Source: a virus. From it: DNA of 64,000 nt. Positions 8,327 to 30,155 of the stretch are shown piece by piece. The position numbers were made by a program, and so were the translations under genes. The stretch is taken from positions 62,001 to 126,000 of IMG/VR virus record IMGVR_UViG_3300046559_000446. One strand, written 5' to 3'. The notes below the pieces were generated by a model. That model ran no database searches. It had not been told where the DNA came from and worked only from the letters and a program-made list of their open reading frames with translations. Position 1 is the stretch's first letter. Each line of letters opens with the position of its first letter.

Positions 8327-8356
8327 AAGCTACGACAAGCGAATACGACCTGTCAA
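8327..8356 (-). promoter_or_regulatory. Promoter of the TTGACA/CGAAYACG family, - strand
   Basis: TTGACA lies at 8356-8351 and TAGCTT at 8332-8327, with an 18-base spacer. The octamer here is CGTATTCG, the reverse complement of the CGAATACG variant, at 8347-8340. It sits between the VRR-NUC gene and the 104-aa gene. The -10 box is weak; the match of position and octamer to other family members is the main support. Confidence 0.5.
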
Positions 8357-8359
8357 CCA

Positions 8360-8707
8360 TCAATCGAGCTTAAATTCCGAAATAAACGCTTTCACCTCGT
8401 CGGGAGTGCGGGCGATCCGATAAATGCCGCCGTTTTCCTCCCAAAAGGTCTGGAAGCCTTTTTGATTGTCGGACTGGCGCCCGGTTTTGGGGATTTTCAA
8501 TTCGAGGGCGAGCGGCCTGCATCGTGAGAGCACGATGATGTCGGCCACGCCAGACCGCACACCCATCTGTTTAAGACGGGCGGCGGTCACTTTGTCGCGC
8601 TTTCCCCCATTTGGCACATGAAACCACACCGTTTTGCGGCAGGCTTCGCTGAACAGCAGGGCGGCATGCATCTGGAAGGAGTCTTCGTCGTAGCCTCTCA
8701 ACGTCAA
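8360..8707 (-). CDS. VRR-NUC domain nuclease
   Basis: 115 aa. The frame reads like a stand-alone phage VRR-NUC protein: an N-terminal helix with DSFQMHAALLFSEA, then FHVPNGGKR, GVRSGVADIIVL, and LALELKIPKTGRQSDNQKGF followed by WEENGGIYRIARTPDEV. The acidic D(x)n-E-x-K core (GVADIIVL.. LELK) is the PD-(D/E)XK catalytic centre. Such proteins cut DNA, often branched structures, in phage recombination or replication. Two TTG starts are possible: 8707 overlaps the upstream stop, and 8701 has a better-spaced GAGG. Confidence 0.85.
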   Translation of the reverse strand: MTLRGYDEDSFQMHAALLFSEACRKTVWFHVPNGGKRDKVTAARLKQMGVRSGVADIIVLSRCRPLALELKIPKTGRQSDNQKGFQTFWEENGGIYRIARTPDEVKAFISEFKLD

Positions 8708-8955
8708 CCTCGTTTCGAAAGAAACTCATCGACCGCCGTCTGGATGACGTGCGACACGCTCTCGAAACCAGGTTCGTTGCGCCAGATTAAGTGTAGCTTG
8801 TCTCGCGCTCGCGGGTCAAGGCGGACCGTGACTACGACTTTCGCCGGCGACTGCGGCGTGAAGACGGGAACAGGCTTTTCCTTCTTTACCTTTTTCGTCG
8901 GCACAAAGCGTGGCATTTTCATGGTTTTCATTTTTGGCTGATCCTTGGCTTGCAT
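8704..8955 (-). CDS. Ribbon-helix-helix-like DNA-binding protein
   Basis: 83 aa from ATG 8955; starts at an ATG eight codons further in (preceded by AAGGA) are also possible. The basic N-terminus (Lys/Met/Pro) is followed by a short strand KVVVTVRLDPRARDKL and two helices ending SVSHVIQTAVDEFLSK, the order of an RHH fold. It lies divergently to the helicase gene, with a palindrome in the gap, so it could regulate that region; this is inference. Confidence 0.55.
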   Translation of the reverse strand: MQAKDQPKMKTMKMPRFVPTKKVKKEKPVPVFTPQSPAKVVVTVRLDPRARDKLHLIWRNEPGFESVSHVIQTAVDEFLSKRG

Positions 8956-8974
8956 TTCGCGGAGTATGGGGGCA

Positions 8975-8984
8975 ACGTATACGT
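8975..8984. promoter_or_regulatory. Palindrome in the divergent gap (possible operator)
   Basis: ACGTATACGT is a perfect 10-bp palindrome between the divergent starts of the RHH-like gene and the SF2 helicase gene. Ten bases can be palindromic by chance, so the support is mainly its place. Confidence 0.3.
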
Positions 8985-9010
8985 CCCGTCAAGACATCAC
9001 GAGGATCTCT

Positions 9011-10444
9011 GTGACCGAAACGCTCTCCGAACAAATTTTAACTCCCACCCTTCGTCCCCATCAGCTAGAAGCCGTTGATACTCTCGCCAACTCCCAGGAA
9101 ATAACAGCATACGCCGAAATGTCGGTCGCCTCCGGAAAATCGCTCGTCATGGCGAAATTGGGCGAGCGGGCGCTTGCCAACACCCGCGTCGTAATTATCG
9201 CGCACACGGAAGAACTGGTGAAGCAGGACGCCGCCGCCTGCCGGTGGATCGGCCAGGATCCGGCCATCTGTAGCGCCGGCCTTAACGAAATGAGGACTGA
9301 TGGCCGGCTTACCGTCGGCACTATCGGCACTATTGCGAATCGGCTCGATCATTTCAGGGATGTCGGCCTGGTCATCATCGACGAGATCCACCGCGCCCGT
9401 ATGACGCCATATAAAGATGGCACGGTATCAGAATATCTGAAGGTGCAGCAGGCGCTGCCGCAAGCCTGGTTTCGCGGCGTCACCGCCACCGGCTGGCGCG
9501 AGGATGGCACCGGATCGCTCAAAAATACGTTCGGCCCCTGCCTCTACGAATACGGTTTCCTGAAAGCCCTTGAGGATGGTTTCGTCAAGATGCTGCGCGC
9601 GGTCGCCGCCGACGCCCCCGACATCGACACCAAAGGCTTGAAGGTCAACTCCCTGGGCGAATGGGGCGGGCAGGAACTGACCCATCGCGGCGTAGCGTTG
9701 GCGCCGCTCCATGTCGCGAGCCTGGTCAAGGTCATGCGCGAGGAAGAGCGGACCAGGTGCCTGATCTTTGCGTGTGACATCGAGCATGCGAATGTGCTGG
9801 AGCGCGAATACAGAAAGCTGGGCATCGACGCACGGGCCGTCCACACCGGCGTCGGCGGTCGCGTCGAAAATGTCGAGGCTTTTCGCAGGGGCGAATTTCC
9901 CGTCATGATCTCGGTCGCCATGTTTAATACGGGGTTCGATGTCCCCGATATTGACATGATGGGCTTCTGCCGCCCGATGAAATCCAGTTTGCTTTATGCA
10001 CAATCCCTGGGGCGCGGCGCTCGCCTGTCCGAATACGCCGATGATTGCGCCGTGGTTGATTTTGGCGGCAACATCATTCGGCACGGCGCCCTTGATATGA
10101 TCGAGCCGCCGAAACAGCGGGCGCCGAGCGGCGGGAAGCCTGAAGAGGAAAGAGAAAAACTGCCGGCGATGAAGCGGGCCGTCGGCGGCGATCTGCGCAA
10201 TGCCGCAAAGGAGGGCGTATTACTATCAAATCAGGGCAAACCGCAGTGGACGAAGCCAAACGGCGTCCCGATCTTTCTGCCGCAGCGCGGTTTTTGGATC
10301 GTCCCGACAAAGCTCGGCAAGGCGCGCTGGTTCTCGCGCGCTTATCCAAACGACGTCGAGCACCTTTATTGCGAGTATAGGGGAAAATACGGCTGGACGG
10401 CGCGCGGCGCTGTCGATAATGTGGGCATCCTTCACAAAGCGTGA
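9011..10444 (+). CDS. SF2 DEAD/DEAH-type DNA helicase
   Basis: 477 aa from GTG 9011, chosen because GAGGA stands five bases before it; the frame is open back to 8945. Motifs of superfamily 2: Q-tip-like LRPHQLEAV, a Walker A variant VASGKS (39-44) where the usual G.GKT is shortened, DEIH (124-127), VTATGWRED (motif III) and QSLGRGAR (331-338, motif VI). Layout is that of small UvsW/RecG-like or restriction-type helicases found in phage replication modules. It opens the + strand replication operon and ends in GTGA overlapping a possible start of the next gene. Confidence 0.85.
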   Translation: MTETLSEQILTPTLRPHQLEAVDTLANSQEITAYAEMSVASGKSLVMAKLGERALANTRVVIIAHTEELVKQDAAACRWIGQDPAICSAGLNEMRTDGRLTVGTIGTIANRLDHFRDVGLVIIDEIHRARMTPYKDGTVSEYLKVQQALPQAWFRGVTATGWREDGTGSLKNTFGPCLYEYGFLKALEDGFVKMLRAVAADAPDIDTKGLKVNSLGEWGGQELTHRGVALAPLHVASLVKVMREEERTRCLIFACDIEHANVLEREYRKLGIDARAVHTGVGGRVENVEAFRRGEFPVMISVAMFNTGFDVPDIDMMGFCRPMKSSLLYAQSLGRGARLSEYADDCAVVDFGGNIIRHGALDMIEPPKQRAPSGGKPEEEREKLPAMKRAVGGDLRNAAKEGVLLSNQGKPQWTKPNGVPIFLPQRGFWIVPTKLGKARWFSRAYPNDVEHLYCEYRGKYGWTARGAVDNVGILHKA

Positions 10445-10473
10445 AACAACCGAATACAGAAAAGGGCTATAAA

Positions 10474-11064
10474 ATGGGTAAATTTACAATTTCTGGCATC
10501 ACGAAGCCGGGTGACAGCTTTCTTTTCGAGAGCGACAATCTCAATGAAGTTCTCGACGCCATCGACATCATGCGCGGTTCTGTGACTGCCAGTGAGCGTG
10601 AACAGCTTGCTGCGGCTGGCGCCTTCGAACCGCCTGCGCAACAGGCCCAGCAGACCTACCAGGCTTCGACCCAGCAGGCTCAGGCTGCTCCTACCGCTCC
10701 TGCCGAACCGCCGAAGCGCACCCGCACCCGCAAGGCCGCCGAGGCCCCGGCGCCCGTGCAGCCGCAGGATGCTCCCCAGACCCAGCAGCCGGCCAGCCCG
10801 TTCGCGAACGCCAATGCGCCCTTTGCGCCGGCGCCCGATCACACTTCGAACGGCGCCACCGAGCGGCCTGCGGTCGTCAAGTTGAAGACGCATCTGGCTG
10901 CTCTCGCCGCCGCGCATGGCGAGGGCCAGGTCTATTCCTGGGCCATCCAGAACGCTTTCAACCTGCCGGTCGAGACGACCAAGGATGTCTTTCTCAACGA
11001 GAAGATCTACGGTTTCACCGACGACCGGCTTGAGGCGGCGTATCGCATGAGCGGCGGTCAGTAA
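10474..11064 (+). CDS. Replication-operon protein with a Pro/Ala/Gln-rich linker
   Basis: 196 aa from ATG 10474 (AAAGGG upstream); a GTG at 10441 overlapping the helicase stop is an alternative start. The N-terminal 35 residues (KFTISGITKPGDSFLFE..) look like a small beta domain, followed by about 75 residues of disordered Pro/Ala/Gln with a basic patch KRTRTRK, and a C-terminal helical domain (LKTHLAALAAAHGEGQVYSWAIQ). Followed by a terminator. It sits between helicase and nuclease/SSB genes, so a replication or recombination accessory role is likely but not shown. Confidence 0.6.
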   Translation: MGKFTISGITKPGDSFLFESDNLNEVLDAIDIMRGSVTASEREQLAAAGAFEPPAQQAQQTYQASTQQAQAAPTAPAEPPKRTRTRKAAEAPAPVQPQDAPQTQQPASPFANANAPFAPAPDHTSNGATERPAVVKLKTHLAALAAAHGEGQVYSWAIQNAFNLPVETTKDVFLNEKIYGFTDDRLEAAYRMSGGQ

Positions 11065-11073
11065 TCACTGATC

Positions 11074-11114
11074 GCACGAATAGAGGGGGTCCATTCGTGC
11101 GGCCCCCTTTTTTA
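11074..11114 (+). terminator. Intrinsic terminator after the 196-aa gene
   Basis: GCACGAAT (11074-11081) pairs with ATTCGTGC (11093-11100), GGGGG in the loop can pair with the CCCCC just downstream, and a run of T (TTTTTT) follows. Nine bases after the stop. Confidence 0.7.
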
Positions 11115-11136
11115 ACATCCAAAAACAGGAAACCCC

Positions 11137-12138
11137 ATGTCAGCCCACGCCAATTTTGCGCCCTCGTCCGCCGCCAGGTGGCTCGAATGTCCCTTCAGCG
11201 CCATGATCAGCGCCACCCTCCCAAATCACGATAGCGACGCCTCCCGCGAGGGCACCCGCGTCCACACCCTGATCGAGAAGGCCATCGCCGGCGAACCGAT
11301 CCCCGAAAGTGAAGACGAGGACGTTGCTTACGGCATCGAAATGGTGCTCGATTTTGTCAATCAACTCGGCGGTCTGAAGACCGTTTTGGCCGAGCAGAAA
11401 GTACACCTGTCGAAAGACGTGTGGGGGACCGTCGATATCTTACAGCCCGATCCTTACGTCACGACCCTCCTGGACTATAAAAACGGCCAGATGGACGTCG
11501 CCGCCGACCGCAACATGCAGTTGATGACCTATGCGGCGGCGACGCTTGAAGAGAAGGGGCCTTCGAAGTTTTACCGCCTGGTGATCGTGCAGCCGAACAG
11601 CCGCACCGCCGGCGATCAGCGCGATGTCAAGCAGAGCCTGGTTCCGCTCGCCCTGGTCGAGGAACATCGTGAAAAGGTGCTGGCGGCGGTCGAGCGCGGC
11701 ATGCACGGCGAGGGGCCGAAGCCTGGCCGGCATTGCCGCTACTGCTCGGCCTTTGGCAACTGCGAAGCCACGCAGCAGATGTTGCCTTTCATCATGACGG
11801 CGGTCCGGATGCTGCCGCACGAGATCCCCAACGCCACCGCCGTCCGCATGCTGACCGTGCTCCGGGGCCTGGAAGACATGCGCAAGGCCCTGGAGAAGGA
11901 TATCGTCACCCGATTCGCTTCCGGCCAGCAGGTGCCCGGCGCCCAAATGGGCATGACCTCGACCCATCGCAAATGGGGCGACGACCGCATGGCGGTCGAG
12001 AAGCTGATCGCAGCCTATGGCCTGAACGGCGTCGATCCGATCAGCCCGGCCCAGGCCGAGAAAATGGGTTCAGCCGGCGTGGAGTTAGCGAAGACGCTGG
12101 CCTTCAAGCCCACGGGAAGCCCCAAACTGATTTATTGA
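11137..12138 (+). CDS. DUF2800 RecB-family nuclease
   Basis: 333 aa, ATG 11137 with AGGAAA upstream. Matches DUF2800 (PD-(D/E)XK, Cas4/AddB-like): SSAARWLECPFSA at the start gives Cys18; GTVDIL (Asp100) and LLDYKNGQ (Asp113, Lys115) form the nuclease core; HCRYCSAFGNC (Cys200, Cys203, Cys209) completes a likely 4Fe-4S cluster with Cys18. DUF2800 is commonly paired with DUF2815 in phage recombination/replication modules, as seen here. Expected role: exonuclease in single-strand annealing or host DNA breakdown. Confidence 0.85.
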   Translation: MSAHANFAPSSAARWLECPFSAMISATLPNHDSDASREGTRVHTLIEKAIAGEPIPESEDEDVAYGIEMVLDFVNQLGGLKTVLAEQKVHLSKDVWGTVDILQPDPYVTTLLDYKNGQMDVAADRNMQLMTYAAATLEEKGPSKFYRLVIVQPNSRTAGDQRDVKQSLVPLALVEEHREKVLAAVERGMHGEGPKPGRHCRYCSAFGNCEATQQMLPFIMTAVRMLPHEIPNATAVRMLTVLRGLEDMRKALEKDIVTRFASGQQVPGAQMGMTSTHRKWGDDRMAVEKLIAAYGLNGVDPISPAQAEKMGSAGVELAKTLAFKPTGSPKLIY

Positions 12139-12145
12139 TGGAGCA

Positions 12146-12175
12146 TTGACAGCCGAACACGCTCGTGCCAATCTA
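12146..12175 (+). promoter_or_regulatory. Promoter of the TTGACA/CGAACACG family upstream of the SSB gene
   Basis: TTGACA 12146-12151, then two bases, then CGAACACG 12154-12161. The -10 region (AATCTA at 12170 or CAATCT at 12169) is poor compared with the other members, so it may need an activator or be weak. It starts eight bases after the DUF2800 stop. Confidence 0.5.
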
Positions 12176-12232
12176 CGTGAGTAAATGTAAAGCGTAACCG
12201 TGCAACCAAGCAAACTGTGAAAGGGCGCCTCT

Positions 12233-12976
12233 ATGGCCCGCGAACTGCAAAAAGTCATCCTCATGAATGCCCAGCTTGTCTACACCAATCGCCTGTACGA
12301 GGCAGAAACGGTGGACATGGCCGGCGCTCCGCTCAAAAAGCCAACCTGGTCTGTGAGCCTCCGCTATCCCAAAACCACCCAGAACTGGTTCGACGAGCCG
12401 CTGCTGTTGGCCCTCCGCAATGCCTGCGGCGTCATCAAGAGCCGCGAAATGGCTCACGTTCCTTTCGAGCGGATCGAGTTCCCCGTCAAAGACGGCTCCC
12501 TCCCCAACAAAAAGAACAAGATCCCGTCCTGGGCGAAGGATCACTGGATCATCCGCGCCAATACGACGATCAAGCGGCCTCTGGTCGAGCAGCGCGTCGA
12601 TGGCGTCGTCACCCCGCTGGAGGCGATCCAGCTTGGCGGAACGCGCCTCTGGGGCGACGGCGACTACGCCGGCGTCGTCATGTCCGTCGCCAAGCGCATG
12701 ACCGATGATATCGGCATCAAGTGCTATCTCCAGAGCGTCTGTTTCATGGCGCACGGCGAGCCTCTCAACACGGCGGGCGAACCCACTGACTGGGATGTCG
12801 CGATCAGCCAGGCTGCGGAGCACGGCATCAACATCAAGGCCGACGCCCCCGGCTTCAATGCCGGTGGATTTCCGCCGGCCAGCAACGGCGCGGCGCCGCC
12901 CTTCGCTCCGTTCAATCCGACCGGTGGCCCGTCGCCGTTCAGCGGCGCCGGTCCCAAGGCCGCCGATCCCTTCTAA
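12233..12976 (+). CDS. DUF2815 single-stranded DNA-binding protein
   Basis: 247 aa. The body (residues 1-200) matches DUF2815: WSVSLRYPKT.. near the start, a long basic central stretch (DGSLPNKKNKIP), and SVAKRMTDDIGIKCYLQSV. The tail is Pro/Ala/Gly-rich and disordered and ends in ADPF, like the terminal acidic-Pro-Phe tip of bacterial SSB and T7 gp2.5 that recruits partners. It should coat single-stranded DNA during replication and recombination. Preceded by a family promoter and followed by a strong terminator. Confidence 0.8.
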   Translation: MARELQKVILMNAQLVYTNRLYEAETVDMAGAPLKKPTWSVSLRYPKTTQNWFDEPLLLALRNACGVIKSREMAHVPFERIEFPVKDGSLPNKKNKIPSWAKDHWIIRANTTIKRPLVEQRVDGVVTPLEAIQLGGTRLWGDGDYAGVVMSVAKRMTDDIGIKCYLQSVCFMAHGEPLNTAGEPTDWDVAISQAAEHGINIKADAPGFNAGGFPPASNGAAPPFAPFNPTGGPSPFSGAGPKAADPF

Positions 12977-13000
12977 AATCAAAACCCAATCAAAAAGATG

Positions 13001-13025
13001 CCCCAGCGTTCGCGCTGGGGTTTCT
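13001..13025 (+). terminator. Intrinsic terminator after the SSB gene
   Basis: CCCCAGCG, TTCG tetraloop, CGCTGGGG, then TTTCT. An 8-bp perfect stem, 24 bases after the stop. Confidence 0.85.
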
Positions 13026-13048
13026 AACTGCGCCCGGAGCTACCCAAA

Positions 13049-13840
13049 ATGCGCCTGCATCAACTCCTAGACTTCAAGAACCAACTGCCTGCTGTTGTTA
13101 GCAATTGGTTCTTGAAGTTCGGACCTGACGTGAAGCAATTCTACTTTGGGGATATCATGTCGATCTCTGGAGACGAGTGGGTCGATCTACAGAATTACGC
13201 CGTTGATCTAGTTGCGTTAGGAAAATTTCAGCTTCCCTTTGAGCATGTGTCATACGCTTATGAGTGTGGCGCCATGCAGATTTTGGGCTGCTTGGAGTTT
13301 AAGAACAATGCGTTTCGTATTGCATTGGCTCGAATGTGGAAAGATGAAATAGGCCGAGCCGCCGTATTTAGTCATTATGCAATAGAAGATCTGGAATGCT
13401 CTAAGGAAATTAAGGGTGTTGGTTGCAAATTACGCGACATAGCTTGTTACCCACCGGTTGAAACAAAAGATCAAGCGACGGAAGCGATTGAAGACGCGCG
13501 CGATCACATGCTCGCGTTCATGGCCCTGACCGTCATGCTGTCGGCCAAAGGCGTCGGGGTTGAAGTCATCCCTGCGCCAGAGAAATTGAACAAGTGCCGA
13601 GCCAAAAAAGGGCGCCCGCCGATCAGTGAAATCCGCACTGTCCACATCCGCATTGGCGGCGAAAAATACACTTTCGCCGGCGAGCGACACGGGCACCACG
13701 CCTCTCCCAGGCTGCACTGGCGTCGCGGCCACATTCGCCGCCTGCCTTCCGGTGGCATCACTAATGTTGTGCCGTGCCTCGTCGGAAATGCGGAGCGCGG
13801 CGTCGTCAAGCACGACTACGACGTGAGGGTCAAGCACTAA
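13049..13840 (+). CDS. Conserved hypothetical phage protein, composition changes midway
   Basis: 263 aa, ATG 13049. The C-terminal third has a conserved phage block, SPRLHWRRGHIRRLPSGG then VVPCLVGNAERG, which I recognise from other phage genomes but not with a function; the Arg/His richness suggests RNA or DNA binding. The first ~150 residues come from noticeably AT-richer DNA than the last ~110, with the change near 13480. A 14-bp inverted repeat (13071-13084 and 13105-13118) lies within codons 8-24. Confidence 0.6.
   Translation: MRLHQLLDFKNQLPAVVSNWFLKFGPDVKQFYFGDIMSISGDEWVDLQNYAVDLVALGKFQLPFEHVSYAYECGAMQILGCLEFKNNAFRIALARMWKDEIGRAAVFSHYAIEDLECSKEIKGVGCKLRDIACYPPVETKDQATEAIEDARDHMLAFMALTVMLSAKGVGVEVIPAPEKLNKCRAKKGRPPISEIRTVHIRIGGEKYTFAGERHGHHASPRLHWRRGHIRRLPSGGITNVVPCLVGNAERGVVKHDYDVRVKH
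13071..13118 (+). repeat. 14-bp perfect inverted repeat inside a coding region
   Basis: ACTTCAAGAACCAA (13071-13084) and its exact complement TTGGTTCTTGAAGT (13105-13118) flank a 20-base spacer that adds three more pairs after one mismatch. The mRNA would form a long stem soon after the start codon of the 263-aa gene. Confidence 0.75.
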
Positions 13841-14259: not shown

Positions 14260-14540
14260 CAGACAATCGCGGAGGAACCAGCGGACCAGGAAAATGGGGT
14301 CCGGAAGAGAAAGAATCGGCGGCGAAACAGCGCCGGCGGGTCTGGATGATCATGATCGATTGGGAGTGGCACACCCTCTCCGAATTGCACATCCTGACCG
14401 GCGATCCGGAGGCGTCCGTTTCTGCGCGCCTTCGCGATCTGCGCAAGAAGAAATTCGGCGGATATGACGTGCTGCGCAGGCGTGTTTTGGGCTTGAAGAT
14501 TTACGAATATCGTGTGGTCGAGCCAGCAGGTGGCGCGTGA
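14256..14540 (+). CDS. Small winged helix-turn-helix protein
   Basis: 94 aa, ATGA overlap on both sides. The pattern WEWHTLSELHILTGDPEASV followed by ARLRDLRKKKFGGYDVLRRR is a winged-helix (helix, recognition helix with S-A-R-L-R-D-L, basic wing) seen in many phages just before the DNA polymerase. DNA binding likely; target unknown. Confidence 0.65.
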   Translation: MTDNRGGTSGPGKWGPEEKESAAKQRRRVWMIMIDWEWHTLSELHILTGDPEASVSARLRDLRKKKFGGYDVLRRRVLGLKIYEYRVVEPAGGA

Positions 14541-16817: not shown

Positions 16818-17818
16818 GATATTTGAGCGTCGCGAGCGGGATCGAGGGCGCCACGGTCGCCTGGGGGCCGCTCGGCTGGGAGCCGGTGGCCTTTGCCGAG
16901 ATCAATCCGGCGGCGACCGCGATCCTGACGCGCCACTATCCAAAAGTGCCGAACTTTGGCGACATGACCCGGCTGTTCACGCCGGCGCTGGGGCCGGTCG
17001 ATCTGCTTGTCGGCGGGACACCATGCCAGGCCTTTTCCGTTGCCGGCGTCCGCCGGGGCCTCGATGACGCGCGCGGCAACCTGGCCCTCGCATTTGTGGA
17101 GTTAGCGCATGAACTCGCCCGAAAAAACGGCCTCCGGAATTGCCTGTGGGAAAACGTCCCCGGCGTCCTCTCAATGCGAGACAACGCCTTTGGCTGTTTC
17201 CTGGGAGGCCTTGTCGGCGGCGACGCCATCGTTCTGCCAGGAGGCGGAAGGTGGCCCGATCAAGGTATGGCTTCCGGTCCCAGGGGACGCCTTTGCTGGC
17301 GTGTGCTCGACGCTCAACATTTCGGCCTCGCCCAACGACGCCGTCGCCTGTTCGTTGTCGTCGATTTTGGAGGTGGGGCCGATCCCGCTGCAGTTTTATT
17401 TGAGCGCGCAGGTCTGCATAAACATCCTGCGCAAGCGCAAGATGCTCCCTTTCCTGCTGTACCGGGCGCTAATACACCAGGCGCTCAGGATGGGGAGCAA
17501 CCCTTCACTCTCGCCATCAGGGGGCGCAAGGACGGCGCGCAGATAGAATGGCGGCAGGATGGCCTGGCCAATGTGCTGCTGACGCCCAGCGGGGGCCGGG
17601 CCGGCATAGGCGTCGGCGCTATTTGTGTTGACGATACATTGCGGCGGTTCACGCCGACCGAGGCCGAGCGGCTGATGGGCTTTCCTGACGGTTATACCGG
17701 CGGCCAGGCCGATTCGGATCGATACCGGCAGCTTGGCAACTCATTTCCGATCCCCGTATTACGCTGGATCGGACGGCGCTTTGAAAATAATTTTGAAAAA
17801 ATGCAAAAAGGTGTTTGA
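16814..17818 (+). CDS. C5-cytosine DNA methyltransferase
   Basis: 334 aa. Motif I LSVASGIEGATVAW, motif II-like EINPAA, motif IV GTPCQAFSVAG with nucleophile Cys71, motif VI WENV (Glu113), motif VIII region QRRRR, and motif X GNSFPIPV near the end. The target-recognition region lies about residues 195-275, so specificity cannot be read. Phage C5 methylases usually shield phage DNA from host restriction. No cognate endonuclease is adjacent. It is the last gene before a family promoter. Confidence 0.95.
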   Translation: MRYLSVASGIEGATVAWGPLGWEPVAFAEINPAATAILTRHYPKVPNFGDMTRLFTPALGPVDLLVGGTPCQAFSVAGVRRGLDDARGNLALAFVELAHELARKNGLRNCLWENVPGVLSMRDNAFGCFLGGLVGGDAIVLPGGGRWPDQGMASGPRGRLCWRVLDAQHFGLAQRRRRLFVVVDFGGGADPAAVLFERAGLHKHPAQAQDAPFPAVPGANTPGAQDGEQPFTLAIRGRKDGAQIEWRQDGLANVLLTPSGGRAGIGVGAICVDDTLRRFTPTEAERLMGFPDGYTGGQADSDRYRQLGNSFPIPVLRWIGRRFENNFEKMQKGV

Positions 17819-17844
17819 CAACCGAACACGCCATGTCCTATAAG
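17815..17844 (+). promoter_or_regulatory. Promoter of the TTGACA/CGAACACG family
   Basis: TTGACA 17815-17820 (overlapping the methyltransferase stop), CGAACACG 17823-17830, TATAAG 17839-17844, followed by GGGTCATCAGC. Near-identical to the promoters at 20201 and 20874. Drives 17897-18202. Confidence 0.85.
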
Positions 17845-17896: not shown

Positions 17897-18202
17897 ATGA
17901 ACCACACTCTCGCTGATCGTTACCAGGCCGCCAAGGCCGTCGCCGCCAAGGCCGATGCCGAGGTCAAGGCGCTCCACGCCGAACTGCTCGCTCTGGGCCA
18001 GCCGGTGGTCGAGGGCCAGCGTTGCACGATCAAGATCGCGGACGCTCCCAAGGACAGCCTGACCAAGGAAATGCTCGTCGGTGAGTTCGGCCTCGACTGG
18101 TACAAGGCTCGCGCCAAGACCATCGAAGGCAAGCGCGTCACCATCATCGCCAAGGCCATGCAGACCTTGGTCGTCAAGGCGCTGGAGGAAATCAGCGCCT
18201 GA
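17897..18202 (+). CDS. Hypothetical 101-aa protein
   Basis: ATG 17897 with AGGGG upstream, about 50 bases after a strong family promoter. N-terminal helix rich in Ala and Lys (ADRYQAAKAVAAKADAEVKA) and a C-terminal segment VTIIAKAMQTLVVKALEEI. Strong promoter and no partner genes suggest a protein made in quantity early in infection. Not recognised. Confidence 0.65.
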   Translation: MNHTLADRYQAAKAVAAKADAEVKALHAELLALGQPVVEGQRCTIKIADAPKDSLTKEMLVGEFGLDWYKARAKTIEGKRVTIIAKAMQTLVVKALEEISA

Positions 18203-20200: not shown

Positions 20201-20230
20201 TTGACACCCGATCACGTTGTGTCCTATAAA
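20201..20230 (+). promoter_or_regulatory. Promoter of the TTGACA/CGAACACG family
   Basis: TTGACA 20201-20206, octamer variant CGATCACG 20209-20216, TATAAA 20225-20230, then GGGTCATCAAC. Drives the 50-aa gene at 20260. Confidence 0.85.
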
Positions 20231-20259: not shown

Positions 20260-20412
20260 ATGTTCGGTTACTTCTACGGAAACGTCCTCATCATCGCGAA
20301 GACCCCTTACGGAGGTAAGGATTTTCGGGACGGCGAGCAGATCATCTGCTGGAGCAAGCGCGAAGCCCGCAAGATCTGCAAGGCTCGCGGCATCAAGCCC
20401 TGGAATTTCTAA
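20260..20412 (+). CDS. Small 50-aa protein behind a strong promoter
   Basis: ATG 20260 about 30 bases after the -10 box. MFGYFYGNVLIIAKTPYGG.. then a basic helix with two Cys (IICWSKREARKICKARG). Own promoter and a following GNRA-looped hairpin make it a single-gene unit, typical of early host-takeover or anti-defence proteins in phages. Function unknown. Confidence 0.55.
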   Translation: MFGYFYGNVLIIAKTPYGGKDFRDGEQIICWSKREARKICKARGIKPWNF

Positions 20413-20873: not shown

Positions 20874-20903
20874 TTGACAGGCGAACACGGTGTGTCCTAT
20901 AAG
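20874..20903 (+). promoter_or_regulatory. Promoter of the TTGACA/CGAACACG family
   Basis: TTGACA 20874-20879, CGAACACG 20882-20889, TATAAG 20898-20903, then GGGACATCAGC. The spacer includes the palindrome ACACGGTGT. Drives 20930-21364 and probably the genes to 23968. Confidence 0.85.
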
Positions 20904-20929: not shown

Positions 20930-21364
20930 ATGAAACTCTCCACCGCCCGCCTCACAGACATCGCCGCGATCAACAAGTTCCTGTTCGCCGGCAACGCCAC
21001 TTTCACCCTGGTGTCGGCCAAGACCGGCGCTCGCTACACCTTCAAGGCGCGTCACTGCGGCGACGAAGGCAAGGATCTGTTTTTCGTGTCGGTCCTGACC
21101 GGCGCCGACAACGAGGCCTCCTACACCTACCTGGGCCAGTTCGTCGGCATGCGCGGGTTCCAGCATGGCCGCAAATCGACGATCAGCGCCGAGGCGCCGT
21201 CGGCCAAGGCCCTGGCCTGGTTCTCCAAGTTCCTGAACACCGCGAGCCTGCCCGATGTGGTCGAGTTCTGGCACGAGGGCAAGTGCTGCCGCTGCGGTCG
21301 CAAATTGACCGTCCCCGCTTCCATCGCTTCCGGCATTGGTCCGGAATGCGCCACCAAGATCTGA
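20930..21364 (+). CDS. DUF6011-type zinc-finger protein
   Basis: 144 aa, ATG 20930 with GAGGA upstream. The C-terminal part FWHEGKCCRCGRKLTVPASI then SGIGPECATK matches the DUF6011 pattern (C-x-R-C-G-R..L..P.S...G.GP.C), a short zinc-binding motif in many phage proteins. The N-terminal 95 residues are a beta-rich domain of unknown role. Made from a strong promoter. Confidence 0.75.
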   Translation: MKLSTARLTDIAAINKFLFAGNATFTLVSAKTGARYTFKARHCGDEGKDLFFVSVLTGADNEASYTYLGQFVGMRGFQHGRKSTISAEAPSAKALAWFSKFLNTASLPDVVEFWHEGKCCRCGRKLTVPASIASGIGPECATKI

Positions 21365-22382: not shown

Positions 22383-22384
22383 AA

Positions 22385-23561: not shown

Positions 23562-23751
23562 TCAGTGCCGGTTCTACGATCCGCTCTCCAAGCCGTGGGA
23601 GTGGCGCGGCTCCTGCAACATCAAGCTGCCGCCTGGCGCTATTATGGACGCCAACGGGGGCTATATTCCCGACAGGTTCACGCGCGGCGATTCGGGCTGC
23701 GATCTGGGCCAGCCGATTGAAGAAAAGGAGGAAACAGCCGATGACGCCTGA
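23545..23751 (+). CDS. Small Cys-containing protein
   Basis: 68 aa, ATG 23545 inside the end of paralogue 2. Cys arrangement KCNQCRFY, GSCNIKLPPG, SGCDLG could bind zinc or a metal. Conserved cysteine-rich proteins of this type occur in phages; role unknown. Confidence 0.6.
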   Translation: MTMKCNQCRFYDPLSKPWEWRGSCNIKLPPGAIMDANGGYIPDRFTRGDSGCDLGQPIEEKEETADDA

Positions 23752-23968
23752 AATGTTGGAAACCGTGGGCCAGAACCTGTTCGGCGCTCATTGGATCGGG
23801 GAACTGGCCGCGCGCTTGAACGTGGCGCCGCGTACGGTTCGGCGCTGGGCCAGGGGTGAGTTCGCCATGCCAAAGGACGCCCAGGAGGCTCTGGGGGTGA
23901 TCGCGCAGGAGCGGGTCCGGGAGGCGGCGCGCGCTTTGGAGGGGTTGCTTGGCGCTGGACAGAATTGA
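23741..23968 (+). CDS. Helix-turn-helix regulator (Aca-like position)
   Basis: 75 aa from ATG 23741 with GAGGA nine bases upstream. HTH: WIGELAARLNVAPRTVRRW followed by ARGEFAMPKD, where RTVRRW is the recognition helix. It terminates the block of small ORFs and is followed by a hairpin. Could repress its own operon. The acr-aca style layout is an inference from context. Confidence 0.75.
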   Translation: MTPEMLETVGQNLFGAHWIGELAARLNVAPRTVRRWARGEFAMPKDAQEALGVIAQERVREAARALEGLLGAGQN

Positions 23969-24005
23969 AATCCGGGCCTAAGTTGGACGCCCCAAATAAA
24001 CAAGA

Positions 24006-24172: not shown

Positions 24173-24826
24173 ATGGCTGACTATGATGTTGAAAAGATCA
24201 AGAAAATTATCGCCATGCTGTCGAGCGAACACGATGGCGAGGCTGCTGCGGCTGCAAGAATGCTTTGCATTCACGCAAAAAAGCAGGGCCACAACGTCAC
24301 AGAAATGATGGCGGCGGTTTTTGGCGGGGGCGGCGGCGGCATGCTGCAGTATAGGCTCGACGCCGCCTTGCACATGGTCGAGGTCGCCAAAGAGGCGGTC
24401 GCGGTGGCGCTGGCTAAGGCCGAAGAAGAGAAGGCCAAGCGCATCGCGCTGGAGCGCCATCGAGACGCAGGCTTTACGGCAACGTCGGCGCCGCGCCCGC
24501 AGCAAGAGGATCGATCCGCCTTCTGGAACGCAGCAGCCAACGCACGGGCGTCGAGCAATCCCGATCCCTGGGCTTGGGGAGCGCCGCCGTGGGGGGCCAA
24601 GCCCTCGCCCCCACCGCCGCCCTGGATGGACATCCTGCGCGATATGTTCGACCGGCACGGCGTGTCCATGCTGACGCAATGGGAGCAAAATTTTGTCGTT
24701 GACCTGATCGACCGAGGCATCCGCCATCCGAGCGAAAAGCAAGAGGCGGTGATTGTCAGGATCGTGGCGAAATACCGCACATGGGAAGACACTGGAAATT
24801 GTGGTTTTCACAGCGTCGGGCGATAG
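24173..24826 (+). CDS. DUF2786-like protein
   Basis: 217 aa, ATG 24173. The N-terminus KIKKIIAMLSSEHDGEAAAA then RMLCIHAKKQGHNV resembles the DUF2786 N-terminal helical domain (K.LL..A....T..EA..A....A..L). A Gly/Pro-rich linker follows (GGGGGG near residue 50; SPPPPPW near 155) and a C-terminal helical part (WEQNFVVDLIDRGIRHPSEK). Upstream of the primase, separated from it by a strong terminator. Role unknown. Confidence 0.55.
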   Translation: MADYDVEKIKKIIAMLSSEHDGEAAAAARMLCIHAKKQGHNVTEMMAAVFGGGGGGMLQYRLDAALHMVEVAKEAVAVALAKAEEEKAKRIALERHRDAGFTATSAPRPQQEDRSAFWNAAANARASSNPDPWAWGAPPWGAKPSPPPPPWMDILRDMFDRHGVSMLTQWEQNFVVDLIDRGIRHPSEKQEAVIVRIVAKYRTWEDTGNCGFHSVGR

Positions 24827-24832
24827 ACAAAG

Positions 24833-24868
24833 AAACGGGGGCTTGCGCCCCCGTTTGCAGTTTTTGCC
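24833..24868 (+). terminator. Intrinsic terminator after the DUF2786-like gene
   Basis: AAACGGGGGC, TTGC, GCCCCCGTTT form a 10-bp stem, followed by GCAGTTTTT. Seven bases after the stop. Confidence 0.8.
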
Positions 24869-24921
24869 CAAACAACACACCCAAAAGGCAGACCCGAACG
24901 ATGGAAAAGGGACCGACTTAG

Positions 24922-27798
24922 ATGTCGAATATAGATCACGGTTCAGGCGGAAGCAAGGGCGGCGGCGGGGGCGGCTCGCAATATCGGTTTTTTCAGATGA
25001 TGGCTAATTATGCCGATTTGCTGATCGACGCCGGCTATCCCATCATCCCGGTCAAGGGCAAGATCCCGACAGACGAAGGTTGGCTGGATCGAAAATACAG
25101 CAAGAGCGACATGCGCGAGCGCATGCTGGCCGGCGGCAATATCGGCCTGCCCCTGGGCCGTGAAGTGGGCGACGACATGGCGCTGGTGTCCATCGACGTC
25201 GATATCCCATTTCTGGCCCCTGCCGAGGCGGTGCGCGGCGTCATGCCAGACGGGCCGACCTGCTATGGAAATCAGCCAAAATTTAAGATGATCGCGCGTG
25301 TGCCCCTGGCCGAAGCTTATTCGCGGGATTATCCCTTTGTGCGCTACAACGGCGCCGGCGAGGAAAAAATCCAGGTCCAGGTGCTGGGCAAGGGCAAACA
25401 AGCGGTGATTTTCGGCATCCATCCCGAAACCGGCAAAATGTATTTTTGGGACGCCGATTCGCAGCAACGGCGCATTTTCGAAATGGCGCCGGATGATTGG
25501 CCGGCAATTAACAACATCGAGACGCTGATAGGATCGATAGCGCGGGCGCTGGAGCCGTTCGGCTGGTCCCGGCGGGCGTCAGGCGTCGGCGGGGCGTCGC
25601 CGCGCGCCCAGGCCTATCCGGAGGGCGTCGAGATCCCGGAGCATATCCTGGACGCGGTCGAAGCTTACCTGAACCGCGAGATCGCCGTCCTGGCCGGCAT
25701 GGCGCCTGGCACGGGGCGCGGGACCAAAGCTTTCGAAATCGGCTGCTGGGCCGGGTTCGCGCTGCGCGATGGCGGCATTGATTTTGACGCGGTGCGGGCC
25801 GAGGTGTCGGACGCCCTGGGCGAAAATCAAAAAGACCTGCGACAATTCGACAATGGCGTGGCTAAGTCGGACGGGCAGCAATTCGCAGAGCCAAAAATCG
25901 ACTGGAACGCCGAGGCGGCAAAGATGGGCGGGCCTGGGCCAGCGCCAAACGTCACCTCAATCGGCCATGACGGCTACAGGATCGCCCTCGCCACGCTGCA
26001 CCGGACCCTTGAGCGCCGGCATGTGCTGCGCCATGGCACAGACACGTCATATGCGGCGCTGATCGCGGAGGCGGCGACCCTGTCCTGGCGTGGTTCGCTT
26101 TACCGCAACATGGCCGGCGATGTGGTGCGGGTGATGCCGTCCGCCGGCGCGCATGGCACGGCGGCGCCAAAGGGCACGTTGAAGGATCCGACGCCGCCGC
26201 AAGTGCGGGTATCGGTTCCGGATGATTGCGAGGTGCGGCTGATGATCGGGGACGCGGTCACAACCTGGGAGCGGGTCAGGATCCCGGACGAGGGCGGGCC
26301 GTCGCATATCGTGATCAATCGCGACCCCAACGGCGAGGACATATCGTGGAGGGGCGCCGGCGGGCTGAAGGTCGAGGGCGCCAAAACCTCGATCTGGGCC
26401 AGGCGCGCGGCGCACAATCACGGGCGCGAGGCCTGGATTGACGACCGCGACGCCTGGGTGAAATGCGCCTTGCCCAAGGGCGAAGGGATTAAGGCGGTGG
26501 TGAAGGCCTTCCGGACCAATGCCGGCACAGTGGGGACGCCGTGGCTGCGCTCGGTATCGACGGCGCCGTCTTTCGGCAGGGACGGGCGGCTGCTGATGGA
26601 TGACGGGCCGCTGGAGACGGCGGCGGGTGAAATCGTGTTTACGGTCCAGGGGGCGATGCGCGGCCACGTCAAGCTGATGCATATTGACGACGCCAAGAAG
26701 GTGCTGATGGACTTCCTGGCCCTGTTTCCGTTCGCTGACGACGTGAGCGAATCGGTGGGCCTGGCGCTGTTCCTGTCGCTGATCGCGCGCGGGGCCTTTG
26801 GCGTGGGGCCGGCTTACGTGATCGACGCGCCGGATTATGGCGCCGGCAAAACTTTTCTGGCCGGCAAGCTGGGGCTGTTTTCGGGGCAACCCATGAACCT
26901 TATCCCGTGCGGCGTGGACAAGGGCGAAGAGGAATTAAGCAAGCGTTTCGAGACGGCGCTGATGACGGAGGCGAGCGGGATGCTTTTGCTCGATGATGTG
27001 CCGCATGGAAAGATGCCGAACTTTCCGACGATGCGAACCTACCTAAGCGCGACCACGCCAGAGCTAAAAATCCGGCGGTTCGGCAAAAACGACGATCACA
27101 AGACAGTCAGGACGGACGCGACCACGCTTGCGGTCACCGGCTGCGCGGTCGAAGTGAGCAAGGACATGGTGCGGCGGGTGCTGCGCACGAACCTGGATCC
27201 GCGCAAGGCGGCGGACAGGGTGGAGTGGGAGGCCGAGGCCTGCCGGCTGGACCTGGACGCCATGTATGCAGACCCGGCAGCGCACGGGCGCGTCCTGGGG
27301 GCCGCGCTGACGGTCCTAGACCATAACTGGCGCACCAGGCCGGCCAGGCTCGATCCGTCGCAGAATTACGAAGCTTGGTCGCGGGTGGTCAGGGAAGCTT
27401 GCAAGGCGGTCACTAATTTTGATCCGGACGATTCCAGGGCGGTGCTTGAGGCGATGGACGCCGATCATGAGCAATGGAGCGACACGCTGCTGGCGGTCAA
27501 GGCGGTGATGGACGGCAAGCCGTTCACGGTCGCGGAACTTGTGGAGAAAGCGCAGGCGTCGGGGAGCACGTTCGGGAGCGTGGGCGCGCCTAGCCCGGCT
27601 CAGGCGGCGCTCGATCACCTCATAGATGAATTTGAACTGCACCGCATCAAAGCAAGCCGGTTTGCGAAACGGCTGGGCCGGTTCCTGCTCAAGCATCGCG
27701 ATAGGCCATTGTGGGAAAAGGGTAAGGAAATTTTCTTGCGCCAGGCCGCCAAGCGAACACAGTTTAAGGGCGAAAAGACGGTCTGGCGGTTCGAATAG
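24922..27798 (+). CDS. Bifunctional primase-polymerase / helicase
   Basis: 958 aa, ATG 24922. The N-terminal part matches the prim-pol domain: GYPIIPVKGKIP, GGNIGLPLG, ALVSIDVD with catalytic Asp92-x-Asp94, and later VQVLGKGKQAVIFG. The C-terminal half holds an AAA/SF3-like ATPase: YGAGKTFLAGKLG (Walker A, Gly640-Thr644) and LLLDDVPHG (Walker B, Asp691/Asp692). This is the single-polypeptide primase-helicase typical of phages that lack DnaB and DnaG homologues. It ends next to the repeat-rich candidate origin, its likely site of action. Confidence 0.9.
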   Translation: MSNIDHGSGGSKGGGGGGSQYRFFQMMANYADLLIDAGYPIIPVKGKIPTDEGWLDRKYSKSDMRERMLAGGNIGLPLGREVGDDMALVSIDVDIPFLAPAEAVRGVMPDGPTCYGNQPKFKMIARVPLAEAYSRDYPFVRYNGAGEEKIQVQVLGKGKQAVIFGIHPETGKMYFWDADSQQRRIFEMAPDDWPAINNIETLIGSIARALEPFGWSRRASGVGGASPRAQAYPEGVEIPEHILDAVEAYLNREIAVLAGMAPGTGRGTKAFEIGCWAGFALRDGGIDFDAVRAEVSDALGENQKDLRQFDNGVAKSDGQQFAEPKIDWNAEAAKMGGPGPAPNVTSIGHDGYRIALATLHRTLERRHVLRHGTDTSYAALIAEAATLSWRGSLYRNMAGDVVRVMPSAGAHGTAAPKGTLKDPTPPQVRVSVPDDCEVRLMIGDAVTTWERVRIPDEGGPSHIVINRDPNGEDISWRGAGGLKVEGAKTSIWARRAAHNHGREAWIDDRDAWVKCALPKGEGIKAVVKAFRTNAGTVGTPWLRSVSTAPSFGRDGRLLMDDGPLETAAGEIVFTVQGAMRGHVKLMHIDDAKKVLMDFLALFPFADDVSESVGLALFLSLIARGAFGVGPAYVIDAPDYGAGKTFLAGKLGLFSGQPMNLIPCGVDKGEEELSKRFETALMTEASGMLLLDDVPHGKMPNFPTMRTYLSATTPELKIRRFGKNDDHKTVRTDATTLAVTGCAVEVSKDMVRRVLRTNLDPRKAADRVEWEAEACRLDLDAMYADPAAHGRVLGAALTVLDHNWRTRPARLDPSQNYEAWSRVVREACKAVTNFDPDDSRAVLEAMDADHEQWSDTLLAVKAVMDGKPFTVAELVEKAQASGSTFGSVGAPSPAQAALDHLIDEFELHRIKASRFAKRLGRFLLKHRDRPLWEKGKEIFLRQAAKRTQFKGEKTVWRFE

Positions 27799-28161
27799 TG
27801 TTAGGGGTTTGGGGAAAATTTTGGGGGTTTTATGGGGGTTTGCGTTTGAGCAAACCCCTAACCATTTTTCCTGTTAAATCAATGGTTTAGGACGTAATAC
27901 AGGGGTTTTAGGGGTTTTATTTTATATTTAAGGAATATTTTTTATATCTTATGTCTTAATATGAGACACATATGAATGATTTTTCTATATAAAGGTAGCT
28001 CGTAAAACCCCTAAAACCCCTAAAATCGAGAAAGGCCTTTAGAATCATGGTTTTAAGGCTAGGGGTTTGTTTGCCAGGGGTTTTATTTCAAACACCTAAG
28101 CAAACCCCTAAACGAAAGAAAGACGCCCGGAGGCGTCAATCTAGTTGACTTTCGTTAAAGG
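27799..28161. other. Candidate replication origin: AT-rich core between AGGGGTTT repeats
   Basis: 363 gene-free bases between the primase-helicase and a - strand HTH-like gene. Nine copies of AGGGGTTT or its complement: + at 27803, 27901, 27910, 28061, 28076; - at 27852, 28005, 28014, 28102, plus two GGGGGTTT (27823, 27834). The first three are exactly 49 bp apart, and the pairs at 27901/27910 and 28005/28014 are 9 bp apart in opposite orientation around an AT-only-like core (27918-28004), a possible unwinding element. GGGG runs at 27804-27838 could form a G-quadruplex. GGGGTTTGC/GCAAACCCC makes a hairpin at 27835-27858. Confidence 0.65.
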
Positions 28162-28368
28162 TCACGATTTCGTATACGTCATGACTTGTTTTTGTGACAT
28201 GCCGGTGCGGATCATGAGGCGCAGGAACATTGCGACAGGCAATGGCGGCCCGATATGCTGCCAGTGCTGATAGTGGGTCTGCCGAGAGTAGCCGAACAGG
28301 GCGGCGCATTGCGGCCCTGTTAGTTTGAGGTGGCGCAAGGCCATGCAATATTCGGTGGCGTCCATCAT
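28162..28368 (-). CDS. Small HTH-like DNA-binding protein next to the origin
   Basis: 68 aa, ATG 28368 overlapping the upstream TGA. LRHLKLTGPQCAALFGYSRQ followed by THYQHWQ has the spacing of a helix-turn-helix of XRE type (T-x-x-x-A-x-x-x-G-x-S). Position beside the repeat region makes it a candidate origin- or operator-binding protein; inference. Confidence 0.55.
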   Translation of the reverse strand: MMDATEYCMALRHLKLTGPQCAALFGYSRQTHYQHWQHIGPPLPVAMFLRLMIRTGMSQKQVMTYTKS

Positions 28369-28580
28369 TTGACCCTCGTCTTTTCAATGCGCCAGGTATA
28401 TGCGGCGTTTTGGGTGATCGCCAAGCCTTCGTCGCGCCTGTCATGGTTGAAGCGCACGATGCGGAAGGCGTAGCGAAAGGCGGCGTCGCCGCGCTTGAAA
28501 GCGTCGTCGGCGCATCCCTGGCGATGGGCCGCCTGATCGGCGGCGCCACGGGCGGTTTTGAAGGTTTGGGCGAGAATCAT
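28365..28580 (-). CDS. Hypothetical basic 71-aa protein
   Basis: ATG 28580 with AAAGGA eight bases upstream is preferred over the frame's extension to 28676. Helical and basic (FKTARGAADQAAHRQGCADD, FRIVRFNHDRRDEG). Unknown. Confidence 0.5.
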   Translation of the reverse strand: MILAQTFKTARGAADQAAHRQGCADDAFKRGDAAFRYAFRIVRFNHDRRDEGLAITQNAAYTWRIEKTRVK

Positions 28581-28596
28581 GGCGGTTTTCCTTTGG

Positions 28597-29163
28597 TTAG
28601 CGCGCCAGGGAGGCGGCGTTGCGGGCCTTGATGGCGGCAATTTTGGCGTCGGTGTGGACCGAACGACGCTTGCCATAAGCGGCGCGAACCTGGCGGAAGC
28701 CGGCTTGCGTCAGGGCGCTTTCAGCGGCCAGGAGCACGGCGTCAACGACGTCGAAAGCGGCCTTTTGGGTGTCGTAGCTGCCGCCGTCCTGGCTCTCAGC
28801 GACCAAGTCGGCGGCATCGACGGCGGCCTGGATGTGCTGATCGATCACCAGGCGTTCGGCCTGATAGGCCTTCCACGAGGCGCGCTCGAAATCGCGCAGC
28901 GCCTTCATGTCATGCTTGGACATGCAGCCGTCCAGGTTTTCCAGGATGAAATCGGCGCCTTCTGCGGTCAAATGCATGGCGTCATGTTCGACGCGGATGA
29001 GGATCGGGCTGTTCAGGCGCAGCGACAGGTCTTTTTCTTCGCGGTTGCCGCAATGGATGATGTGGCCGCCGGCGGTGAAATCAAGGTCGCTGCGAGCGCC
29101 TGTGATGATGGCGAGGACGGCGCGGTCGTTAACGGTGCGGGCGAGTGTCGGGGAAGTGGTCAT
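28597..29163 (-). CDS. Hypothetical 188-aa helical protein
   Basis: ATG 29163 with AGGAG eight bases upstream, behind a promoter that lies inside a 30-bp palindrome. N-terminal beta part (DLDFTAGGHIIHCGNREE..), then helical (SKHDMKALRDFERASWKAYQ) and a basic end (YGKRRSVHTDAKIAAIKAR). Unknown; it forms one unit with the two genes downstream. Confidence 0.6.
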   Translation of the reverse strand: MTTSPTLARTVNDRAVLAIITGARSDLDFTAGGHIIHCGNREEKDLSLRLNSPILIRVEHDAMHLTAEGADFILENLDGCMSKHDMKALRDFERASWKAYQAERLVIDQHIQAAVDAADLVAESQDGGSYDTQKAAFDVVDAVLLAAESALTQAGFRQVRAAYGKRRSVHTDAKIAAIKARNAASLAR

Positions 29164-29189
29164 AACGTGTGCTCCTGTTCGGTGTCTCT

Positions 29190-29218
29190 TATGTAAACTG
29201 GGTTGACAGGCTTGTCAA
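29190..29218 (-). promoter_or_regulatory. Promoter embedded in a palindrome
   Basis: On the - strand TTGACA (29218-29213), 17-base spacer, TACATA (29195-29190). The -35 box is part of the 30-bp perfect palindrome 29196-29225, so any protein bound there would block it. Confidence 0.5.
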
Positions 29219-29225
29219 CCCAGTT
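29196..29225. promoter_or_regulatory. 30-bp perfect palindrome (operator or attenuator)
   Basis: AACTGGGTTGACA and TGTCAACCCAGTT, 13-bp perfect arms around GGCT. It stands between the stop of 29236-30021 and the start of 28597-29163, both on the - strand. It contains TTGACA in both directions. No T run follows, so an operator is more likely than a terminator. Confidence 0.7.
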
Positions 29226-29235
29226 GTCGAATTAT

Positions 29236-30021
29236 TTACGCCTGGGCGCCAACAAAACGCTTGGCGGTGGCGCCGTGGGCGATGATCACCATGGACGCTT
29301 TCGCCTTTGCGCTGGTGCCGCCGCAGGCCTGGCAAGCGTCGCAGGAGGTCTTCACGCCGGCTTCTTTCGACGCCGGGCAGATCACTTCACCCTTGGCCTT
29401 AGCCTCCGACGGGGTGCGGACGCGGAACGAGCGCCAGCCGGCGGCGGTCGCGTCCGCCAGGTCGGCCAGGCTGTCGCATGACGCCATGCAGATGGTCTTG
29501 AGCGCCTGGAAACGAGCGTCGCGCCATTGGTGCGAATAGCCGTTAGTGAAGGCGGCGCGAAGCGTGGCGGCGCGCCAGACCTGGAAAGGCACAGCAGCTG
29601 GATCGCCATATGTGCCGAGGCGGAAGCCCAGGCCGGCGAACAATTCCGGAAGGATGGCAACGTCATAATCGACGCCCGGCTCGGCGTAGCGGTCGCCACG
29701 GATTAGCGTCTCGTATACGCTGCGAACGCTGCGCCCGACGTTGACGTAGCAGGCGCCACCCAAATACGGGCGCATGAGGCAGTCACCGCACACGCTGCTG
29801 TCAAGGCCGCTCTTGAGCGCGACGACCGGCGACACATCCGAGCGGATGATAAAGGTCTGCACCATCGCGCCCGTCTTGACGTTGGTGCTGGCCGAGGTGA
29901 TTTTGTTGGCGATGGCGACAATCGGGGCGCCGTCGATCATCGACGGGCCACGATAAAGGACGACGCCGCAAAAGCGATTGGACTTGAGAGCGGCGAGCAT
30001 GTCGGAGGCGGTGCGGATCAT
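29236..30021 (-). CDS. Conserved phage protein with two Cys clusters (DUF7227-like)
   Basis: 261 aa, ATG 30021. The first 110 residues contain SMIDGAPIVAIANKI, NVKTGAMVQTFII and VCGDCLMRPYLGGACYVNV; the end has TSCDACQACGGTSAKAK. The spacing matches a widely distributed phage protein of unknown function that I believe is DUF7227; the name is from memory and should be checked. The Cys knuckles suggest metal binding. Driven by a family promoter at 30089-30061. Confidence 0.65.
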   Translation of the reverse strand: MIRTASDMLAALKSNRFCGVVLYRGPSMIDGAPIVAIANKITSASTNVKTGAMVQTFIIRSDVSPVVALKSGLDSSVCGDCLMRPYLGGACYVNVGRSVRSVYETLIRGDRYAEPGVDYDVAILPELFAGLGFRLGTYGDPAAVPFQVWRAATLRAAFTNGYSHQWRDARFQALKTICMASCDSLADLADATAAGWRSFRVRTPSEAKAKGEVICPASKEAGVKTSCDACQACGGTSAKAKASMVIIAHGATAKRFVGAQA

Positions 30022-30060
30022 GTGGAGAGGCCTTTTTGTCTGCGGCGTTGAACTGTCCCG

Positions 30061-30089
30061 AATATAGCCACAGCGTATGCGCCTGTCAA
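30061..30089 (-). promoter_or_regulatory. Promoter of the TTGACA/CGAACACG family, - strand
   Basis: TTGACA 30089-30084, octamer variant CGCATACG 30081-30074, TATATT 30066-30061, spacer 17. Back-to-back with the + promoter at 30125. Confidence 0.75.
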
Positions 30090-30124
30090 CTAGGTTTACA
30101 AATTAAAATAAATTATTTTTGCGC

Positions 30125-30155
30125 TTGACAACTAGATTGACGCCAGGCATATAAA
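30125..30155 (+). promoter_or_regulatory. Promoter of the 101-aa gene, + strand
   Basis: TTGACA 30125-30130, TATAAA 30150-30155 (or CATATA 30148, giving 17 bases), then GGGCAGTTAAC, similar downstream to the other family members. The spacer octamer is not conserved here. Confidence 0.6.

Follow-up and report, generated by a model that had tools for sequence, protein, structure and literature searches.

A repeated 14-bp element as a predicted operator of early-gene promoters in a clade of uncultured tailed phages

Why do several promoters of one virus carry the same short sequence in the spacer between their -35 and -10 boxes? The question is raised by a 64,000-nucleotide stretch of viral DNA, referred to here as the window, which is bases 62001-126000 of the 138,254-bp IMG/VR record IMGVR_UViG_3300046559_000446. 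An earlier reading of the window, the original prediction, had described an octamer located two bases past TTGACA in a family of promoters. The conserved unit is a 14-mer, GACA-N-S-CG-M-A-Y-ACG, with the octamer as its core, and by comparison of sequences it is confined to intergenic DNA, conserved at orthologous promoters, and restricted to one clade of phages. On balance, we favor the reading that it is the operator of a phage-encoded repressor of early and replication genes. The repressor would be the small ribbon-helix-helix (RHH)–like protein encoded at 8704-8955 on the minus strand, which would also regulate its own gene, and in distant relatives the protein and its operator would have changed together.

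A 14-bp element in promoters and intergenic gaps

The motif consensus was built from 57 sites in a motif-bearing set of six genomes (both halves of the record, explained below, as well as G001, G009, G010, and G011) and one further contig, and with the full -35 box it reads TTGACA-N-S-CG-M-A-Y-ACG. In most sites, the octamer begins two bases past TTGACA, and the element overlaps the -35 box, its GACA usually being the end of that box. Positions 12 and 13 (A and C) are invariant and the G at position 14 is nearly so in the 49 sites that have a -35 box or a near match to one. The octamer alone was dropped as the unit, since its enrichment is weak (90 versus 72.7). The composite pattern with up to three mismatches gives 13 matches where 5.1 are expected, and none of 100 shuffles reaches 13. 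Also, the octamer follows 25 of 64 intergenic TTGACA sequences compared to none of 105 coding ones (Fisher p 8e-13). The conserved octamer that had been proposed is thus part of a real element, but the unit is longer and belongs to this phage clade.

Across the whole 138-kb record, there are 18 profile sites scoring at least 16, compared to about 0.2 per Markov-random genome. All but one are intergenic (17/18), and the remaining “coding” site at 1036 is overlapped by a doubtful open reading frame (ORF) call. A lack of enrichment in related phages would have counted against the original prediction, but the enrichment is clear: a profile trained on this record alone found 27 sites in four related contigs totaling 192 kb, of which 12% is non-coding, and all 27 are intergenic, whereas 200 column-permuted profiles gave a mean of 2.1 matches in the same contigs, 0.23 of them intergenic. 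In these four held-out contigs, 30 of 32 intergenic sites point to a gene on the same strand. The sites recur at orthologous promoters, namely those of the RHH-like/VRR-NUC operon, the gene after the helicase, the single-stranded DNA (ssDNA)–binding protein gene, and the gene at 17897. The block of structural genes has no sites except for one coding match at 44383, which is judged to be due to chance.

The candidate regulator and the predicted operators in the window are as follows.

8334-8347, plus strand: predicted operator GACAAGCGAATACG, reversed inside a minus-strand promoter (TTGACA 8356-8351) upstream of the gene at 7979-8293 (-)
8704-8955, minus strand: candidate regulator, an 83-amino-acid RHH-like protein, encoded directly upstream of the VRR-NUC-like gene at 8360-8701
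8976-8983, minus strand: palindromic octamer CGTATACG, three bases past TTGACG (8992-8987), with a CATACT -10 box ending at 8963, in the promoter of the RHH-like gene
10445-10458, plus strand: predicted operator AACAACCGAATACA, between the helicase stop and the start of 10474-11064, without a -35 match
12148-12161, plus strand: predicted operator in the promoter of the ssDNA-binding protein gene 12233-12976
17817-17830, plus strand: predicted operator in the promoter of 17897-18202 (TTGACA-18-TATAAG)
20203-20216, plus strand: predicted operator, a CGATCACG variant, in the promoter of 20260-20412
20876-20889, plus strand: predicted operator in the promoter of 20930-21364
30074-30087, minus strand: predicted operator GACAGGCGCATACG in the promoter (TTGACA-17-TATATT) of 29236-30021 (-)
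30164-30177, plus strand: predicted operator AACAACCGCACACG, just 3' of the -10 box of a divergent promoter and 13 bp ahead of the gene at 30190-30495
30687-30700, minus strand: predicted operator AACAACCGAATACG, in the convergent gap 30496-30761, without a fitted promoter
31158-31171, minus strand: weak predicted operator GACAGTAGAATACG, ahead of the gene at 30762-31145 (-)

The sites quoted in the original prediction are all present at their positions. TTGACA-N2-CGAACACG is exact at 12146, 17815, and 20874, with one mismatch (CGATCACG) at 20201; TATAA after 18 bases, followed by GGG[TA]CATCA, is seen at 17815, 20201, and 20874 but not at 12146. On the minus strand, the site at 30089 reads TTGACA-N2-CGCATACG with TATATT after 17 bases, and the one at 8356 carries the octamer reversed, as TTGACA-N3-CGTATTCG (on the plus strand, GACA-AG-CGAATACG-ACC-TGTC). 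The octamer at 30687-30700 (-) lacks a -35 box; the original prediction had placed it there without a good promoter. Newly added are 10445 (+), 30164 (+), the weak site at 31171 (-), the inverted octamer at 8976-8983, and about ten sites in the first half of the record. The counterpart of the weak site in the other half of the record, GACAAGCGAGTACG, is stronger. Consensus promoter and terminator scans add little, and most promoters with the element are not listed by such scans because they end in TATAAG.

Eight of the 57 sites have no -35 box; such sites lie in the gap ahead of a start codon, between convergent genes, or beside a terminator. In other cases, the octamer is inverted or palindromic inside the spacer, as at 8356 (-), in the promoter of the 8704 gene, and in one G010/G011 promoter. 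Both kinds of sites show that the element is separable from the promoter sequence, and this independence, along with the held-out relatives and the orthologous promoters, supports the earlier proposal of a regulator-binding element in promoters of the early region. Of the 49 sites with a -35 box or a near match, 17 have TGTC 1-4 nucleotides past the octamer, as do two of the eight without. A full dyad, GACA-N2-CGNATNCG-N2-TGTC, was not adopted, since only part of the sites have TGTC and promoters of the outgroup (below) also have it before the -10 box.

Some other features were seen beside the sites. Predicted operators adjoin intrinsic-terminator-like hairpins at L028:15537 and G010:50104. 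Weak matches to the motif lie over ribosome-binding sites ([AC]ACAGGAG-N-ACACG before ATG) at 29166-29179 (-) and 7493-7506 (-), the first of which recurs in both G010 and G011 at the orthologous gene. A near-perfect palindrome, TTGACAGGCTTGTCAA, is present between genes at 29203-29218 and in both halves of the record; it may represent two divergent -35 boxes that overlap, or else an operator of its own. At 30705-30762, ATGAGAGTGTTCATTTCCC-like segments are repeated in the intergenic gap, which is possibly an origin or a regulatory region.

The record, its relatives, and the reach of the motif

The 138-kb record is made of two collinear halves of ~69 kb that for the most part share 75-94% identity. 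A 99-bp repeat is present at the record ends, and the junctions are near G000:C1:69299 and 138155/1. In two independent contigs from other metagenomes (L012 and L013), the end of the second half leads directly into its start. Since the halves are collinear and these contigs close the second genome, the most plausible reading of the record is that assembly joined the genomes of two related phages. The sequences thus suggest a chimera of two ~69-kb phages, each probably circularly closed, with the closing contig less clear for the first half. The halves provide a built-in comparison in which operators are at matching places in both but the individual octamers differ; at the 30087 (-) site, for example, the two halves have CGAACACG versus CGCATACG.

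The clade described comprises uncultured tailed phages of ~69 kb. A stricter pattern that includes TGTC was found in 18 viral stretches, 16 of which are in contigs of this clade, while in 84,980 bacterial and archaeal genomes the same pattern gave 28 single matches scattered over unrelated phyla. The matches in L063 and L068 were set aside as chance, as neither contig has meaningful homology to the clade and both L068 sites are inside a coding ORF. In more distant relatives, whose DNA polymerase is 44-48% identical, the motif does not rise above the control level. In this database-wide test the motif follows the phage lineage and not the host, and the element is confined to this phage clade.

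No match to PF00589 or PF00239, the tyrosine and serine recombinase models, was found in the record or the relatives tested, these records being incomplete. A pattern-seeded search of genome contigs for prophage relatives through their DNA polymerase found none. With neither an integrase nor a relative in genome contigs found, prophage immunity is no likelier a role for the repressor than a timed shut-off of early genes.

The candidate repressor and the alternatives

In the proposed mechanism, a protein bound over the -35 box and spacer (or over the start site, or the region before the ribosome-binding site) would exclude RNA polymerase. This protein is taken to be the RHH-like product of 8704-8955 (-), which would repress its own promoter through the same site. 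Sites without a promoter might act as roadblocks, as proposed for the stoperators of phage L5 (PMC9283540). Repression is likelier than activation, since binding over the -35 box, spacer, or start site should block the polymerase.

The RHH-like product is the leading candidate for the binder. Orthologs are present in all six motif-bearing genomes, and a site is present at the gene's own promoter in all six. Both halves of the record have it as TTGACG-N3-CGTATACG, and the other four genomes (G001, G009, G010, and G011) have it in forward orientation. The AlphaFold model has a mean predicted local distance difference test (pLDDT) score of 73, with an extended segment followed by helices at residues 47-59 and 66-81; in the monomer, the strand is unassigned. 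The closest solved structures are ParD RHH antitoxins with Z scores of 3.4-3.8 (the best being ParD2, Z 3.8). Among isolated phage genomes and PDB sequences, the candidate has no match. The assignment of an RHH fold to the product is of moderate strength.

Several points weigh against this account. The assignment to the RHH family relies on the pattern of the alignment, a modest model, and weak fold matches, with no Pfam model above the cut-off. Throughout the clade, the candidate gene has no match to RHH_1 (PF01402), and one outgroup ortholog matches PF01402 with an E value of 0.031, below the cut-off; divergent RHH proteins are often missed by the RHH_1 model. Ingroup and outgroup RHH-like proteins match each other weakly, the best hidden Markov model E value being 0.0006 in a small candidate set. 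The sign of regulation is inferred from sites in predicted promoters, and the MerR-like helix-turn-helix (HTH) protein (23741) and the GcrA-like protein are conserved in the ingroup as well.

These two proteins account for the alternative that retains some life, though it is an unlikely one: the binder could be another phage protein. One such protein is the GcrA-like product (3342-3785 and its second-half copy), which would partner sigma70 in the spacer; the other is the MerR-like HTH protein (23741-23968). GcrA works with sigma70 at promoters, and GcrA-like genes above the Pfam cut-off are found in four of five motif-bearing records; conservation of the MerR-like protein extends over both halves of the record and to three relatives. 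However, neither gene has a site directly ahead of it, unlike the RHH-like gene, and sites without promoters are ill-suited to a sigma partner. The motif consensus also has no GANTC methylation site, as would be looked for at GcrA-dependent promoters. In the outgroup, GcrA is present in three of 13 records (several being fragments), and the element found there, TGTCATACA, also occurs in records without GcrA. As a gene above the Pfam cut-off in most phages of the clade, 3342-3785 may in any case be a handle on host transcription. The other HTH products once listed as candidate binders along with these were rejected as too poorly conserved: 28162 is confined to the two halves of the record, and 14256 is shared with a single relative. 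From that list, the RHH protein now leads, and the GcrA-like and 23741 products remain its rivals.

It is improbable that the sites bind a host regulator exploited by the phages. CtrA is reported to be exploited in this way by alphaproteobacterial phages (PMC9437464). The motif-bearing phages could have a common host group, and their GcrA-like gene suggests an alphaproteobacterial one. The distribution argues otherwise, as the long pattern gives scattered single matches in the bacterial and archaeal genomes and almost none in unrelated viral contigs, and related phages have another element at the same promoters, though their hosts may differ. The original prediction had allowed for a phage or a host regulator; a phage-encoded binder is now favored and a host regulator disfavored.

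There is even less to suggest that the site activates, with a phage protein in the spacer recruiting polymerase for a time-limited set of genes. Activators that bind in the spacer exist, and the rigid placement two bases past TTGACA in most sites would suit one; but the -35 boxes are already near consensus, the 30164 site is 3' of a -10 box, and several sites have no promoter. Least probable is that one strong promoter cassette was spread by duplication with the octamer as a passenger: six sites in the record do have ~40 bp in common, including TGTCCTATAA and a GGG[TA]CATCA-like block, but across relatives the flanks have diverged while the 14-mer is kept, some sites lack a -35 box, and some have the octamer inverted.

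The outgroup brings the argument back to the RHH-like repressor. It consists of 13 loci (L031-L043), several of these records being fragments, and in 10 of them a small, diverged RHH-like ORF lies directly upstream of the VRR-NUC gene. The start of nine of these 10 ORFs has TGTCATACA or a close variant, which recurs downstream of the helicase; outgroup matches to it are nearly all intergenic, and the exact sequence has zero occurrences in the ingroup. A joint change of protein and operator is the simplest way to read this. One could tentatively go further and propose that the RHH-like early-gene repressor and its genome-wide operators switched specificity together (CGMAYACG versus TGTCATACA) within one lineage without detectable integrases; the early regulon would then move as a whole, and co-occurring phages may fall into exclusion groups defined by it. 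The sequence TGTCATACA is often also seen ahead of a gene starting ATGCGCGA in these loci. One relative, L036, has a different palindrome, CGTTGA-N3-TCAACG or close variants, over TTGACA at many promoters (e.g., at 1631, 2634, 5201, 8032, 9590, 11918, 17810, 19794, and 21553).

What this offers is a predicted complete regulon (sites, genes, and likely binder) for an uncultured phage group, derived purely from sequence. With two motif types occurring at the same promoters, these phages would make a compact model for asking how dozens of operators and their repressor change in concert. The site by itself can flag early-region genes of these phages.

Comparison with known scattered operators

Scattered-operator systems of the L5 and SPBRE type repeat a single short motif throughout the phage genome, in promoters and in gaps between genes, and the same arrangement is found here. 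By analogy, the present system, with its putative binder, would belong with the L5 stoperators, SPBRE/MrpR, and F55. In L5 and the cluster A mycobacteriophages, there are more than 20 asymmetric sites of 13 bp, which follow the direction of transcription and lie in promoters or in short gaps between genes (PMC9283540). Here, the 14-mer occurs at roughly ten sites per 69 kb, also in promoters and gaps and mostly oriented with the downstream gene. Unlike here, where the candidate is small and RHH-like and no integrase was found, the L5 repressor is a monomeric two-domain HTH protein of a temperate phage (PMC9283540), and some of the present sites are inverted relative to the promoter.

As for the protein, the closest parallels are F55 of SSV1 and SvtR of SIRV1, small RHH repressors that bind viral promoters, their own among them, at several sites, with F55 at immediate-early promoters (PMC5569661). 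The candidate here resembles them, as compared from sequence, in its small size, RHH-like character, and predicted sites in multiple promoters including its own. However, those are archaeal viruses with archaeal promoters, their binding sequences differ, and any homology to the candidate is hypothetical. Lineage-specific motifs upstream of early genes, the regulator gene included, are also known from archaeal viruses, but these are core promoters with their flanks (PMC11065993), whereas the element here is a compact predicted operator.

The direct precedent for inferring a repressor from a repeated intergenic element is SPBRE of phage SPbeta, which was found in silico and later proved to be the 15-bp site of the master repressor MrpR (PMC10516654). 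MrpR differs from the present candidate in resembling tyrosine recombinases, a function that MrpR itself has lost, and SPbeta is an integrated prophage (PMC10516654).

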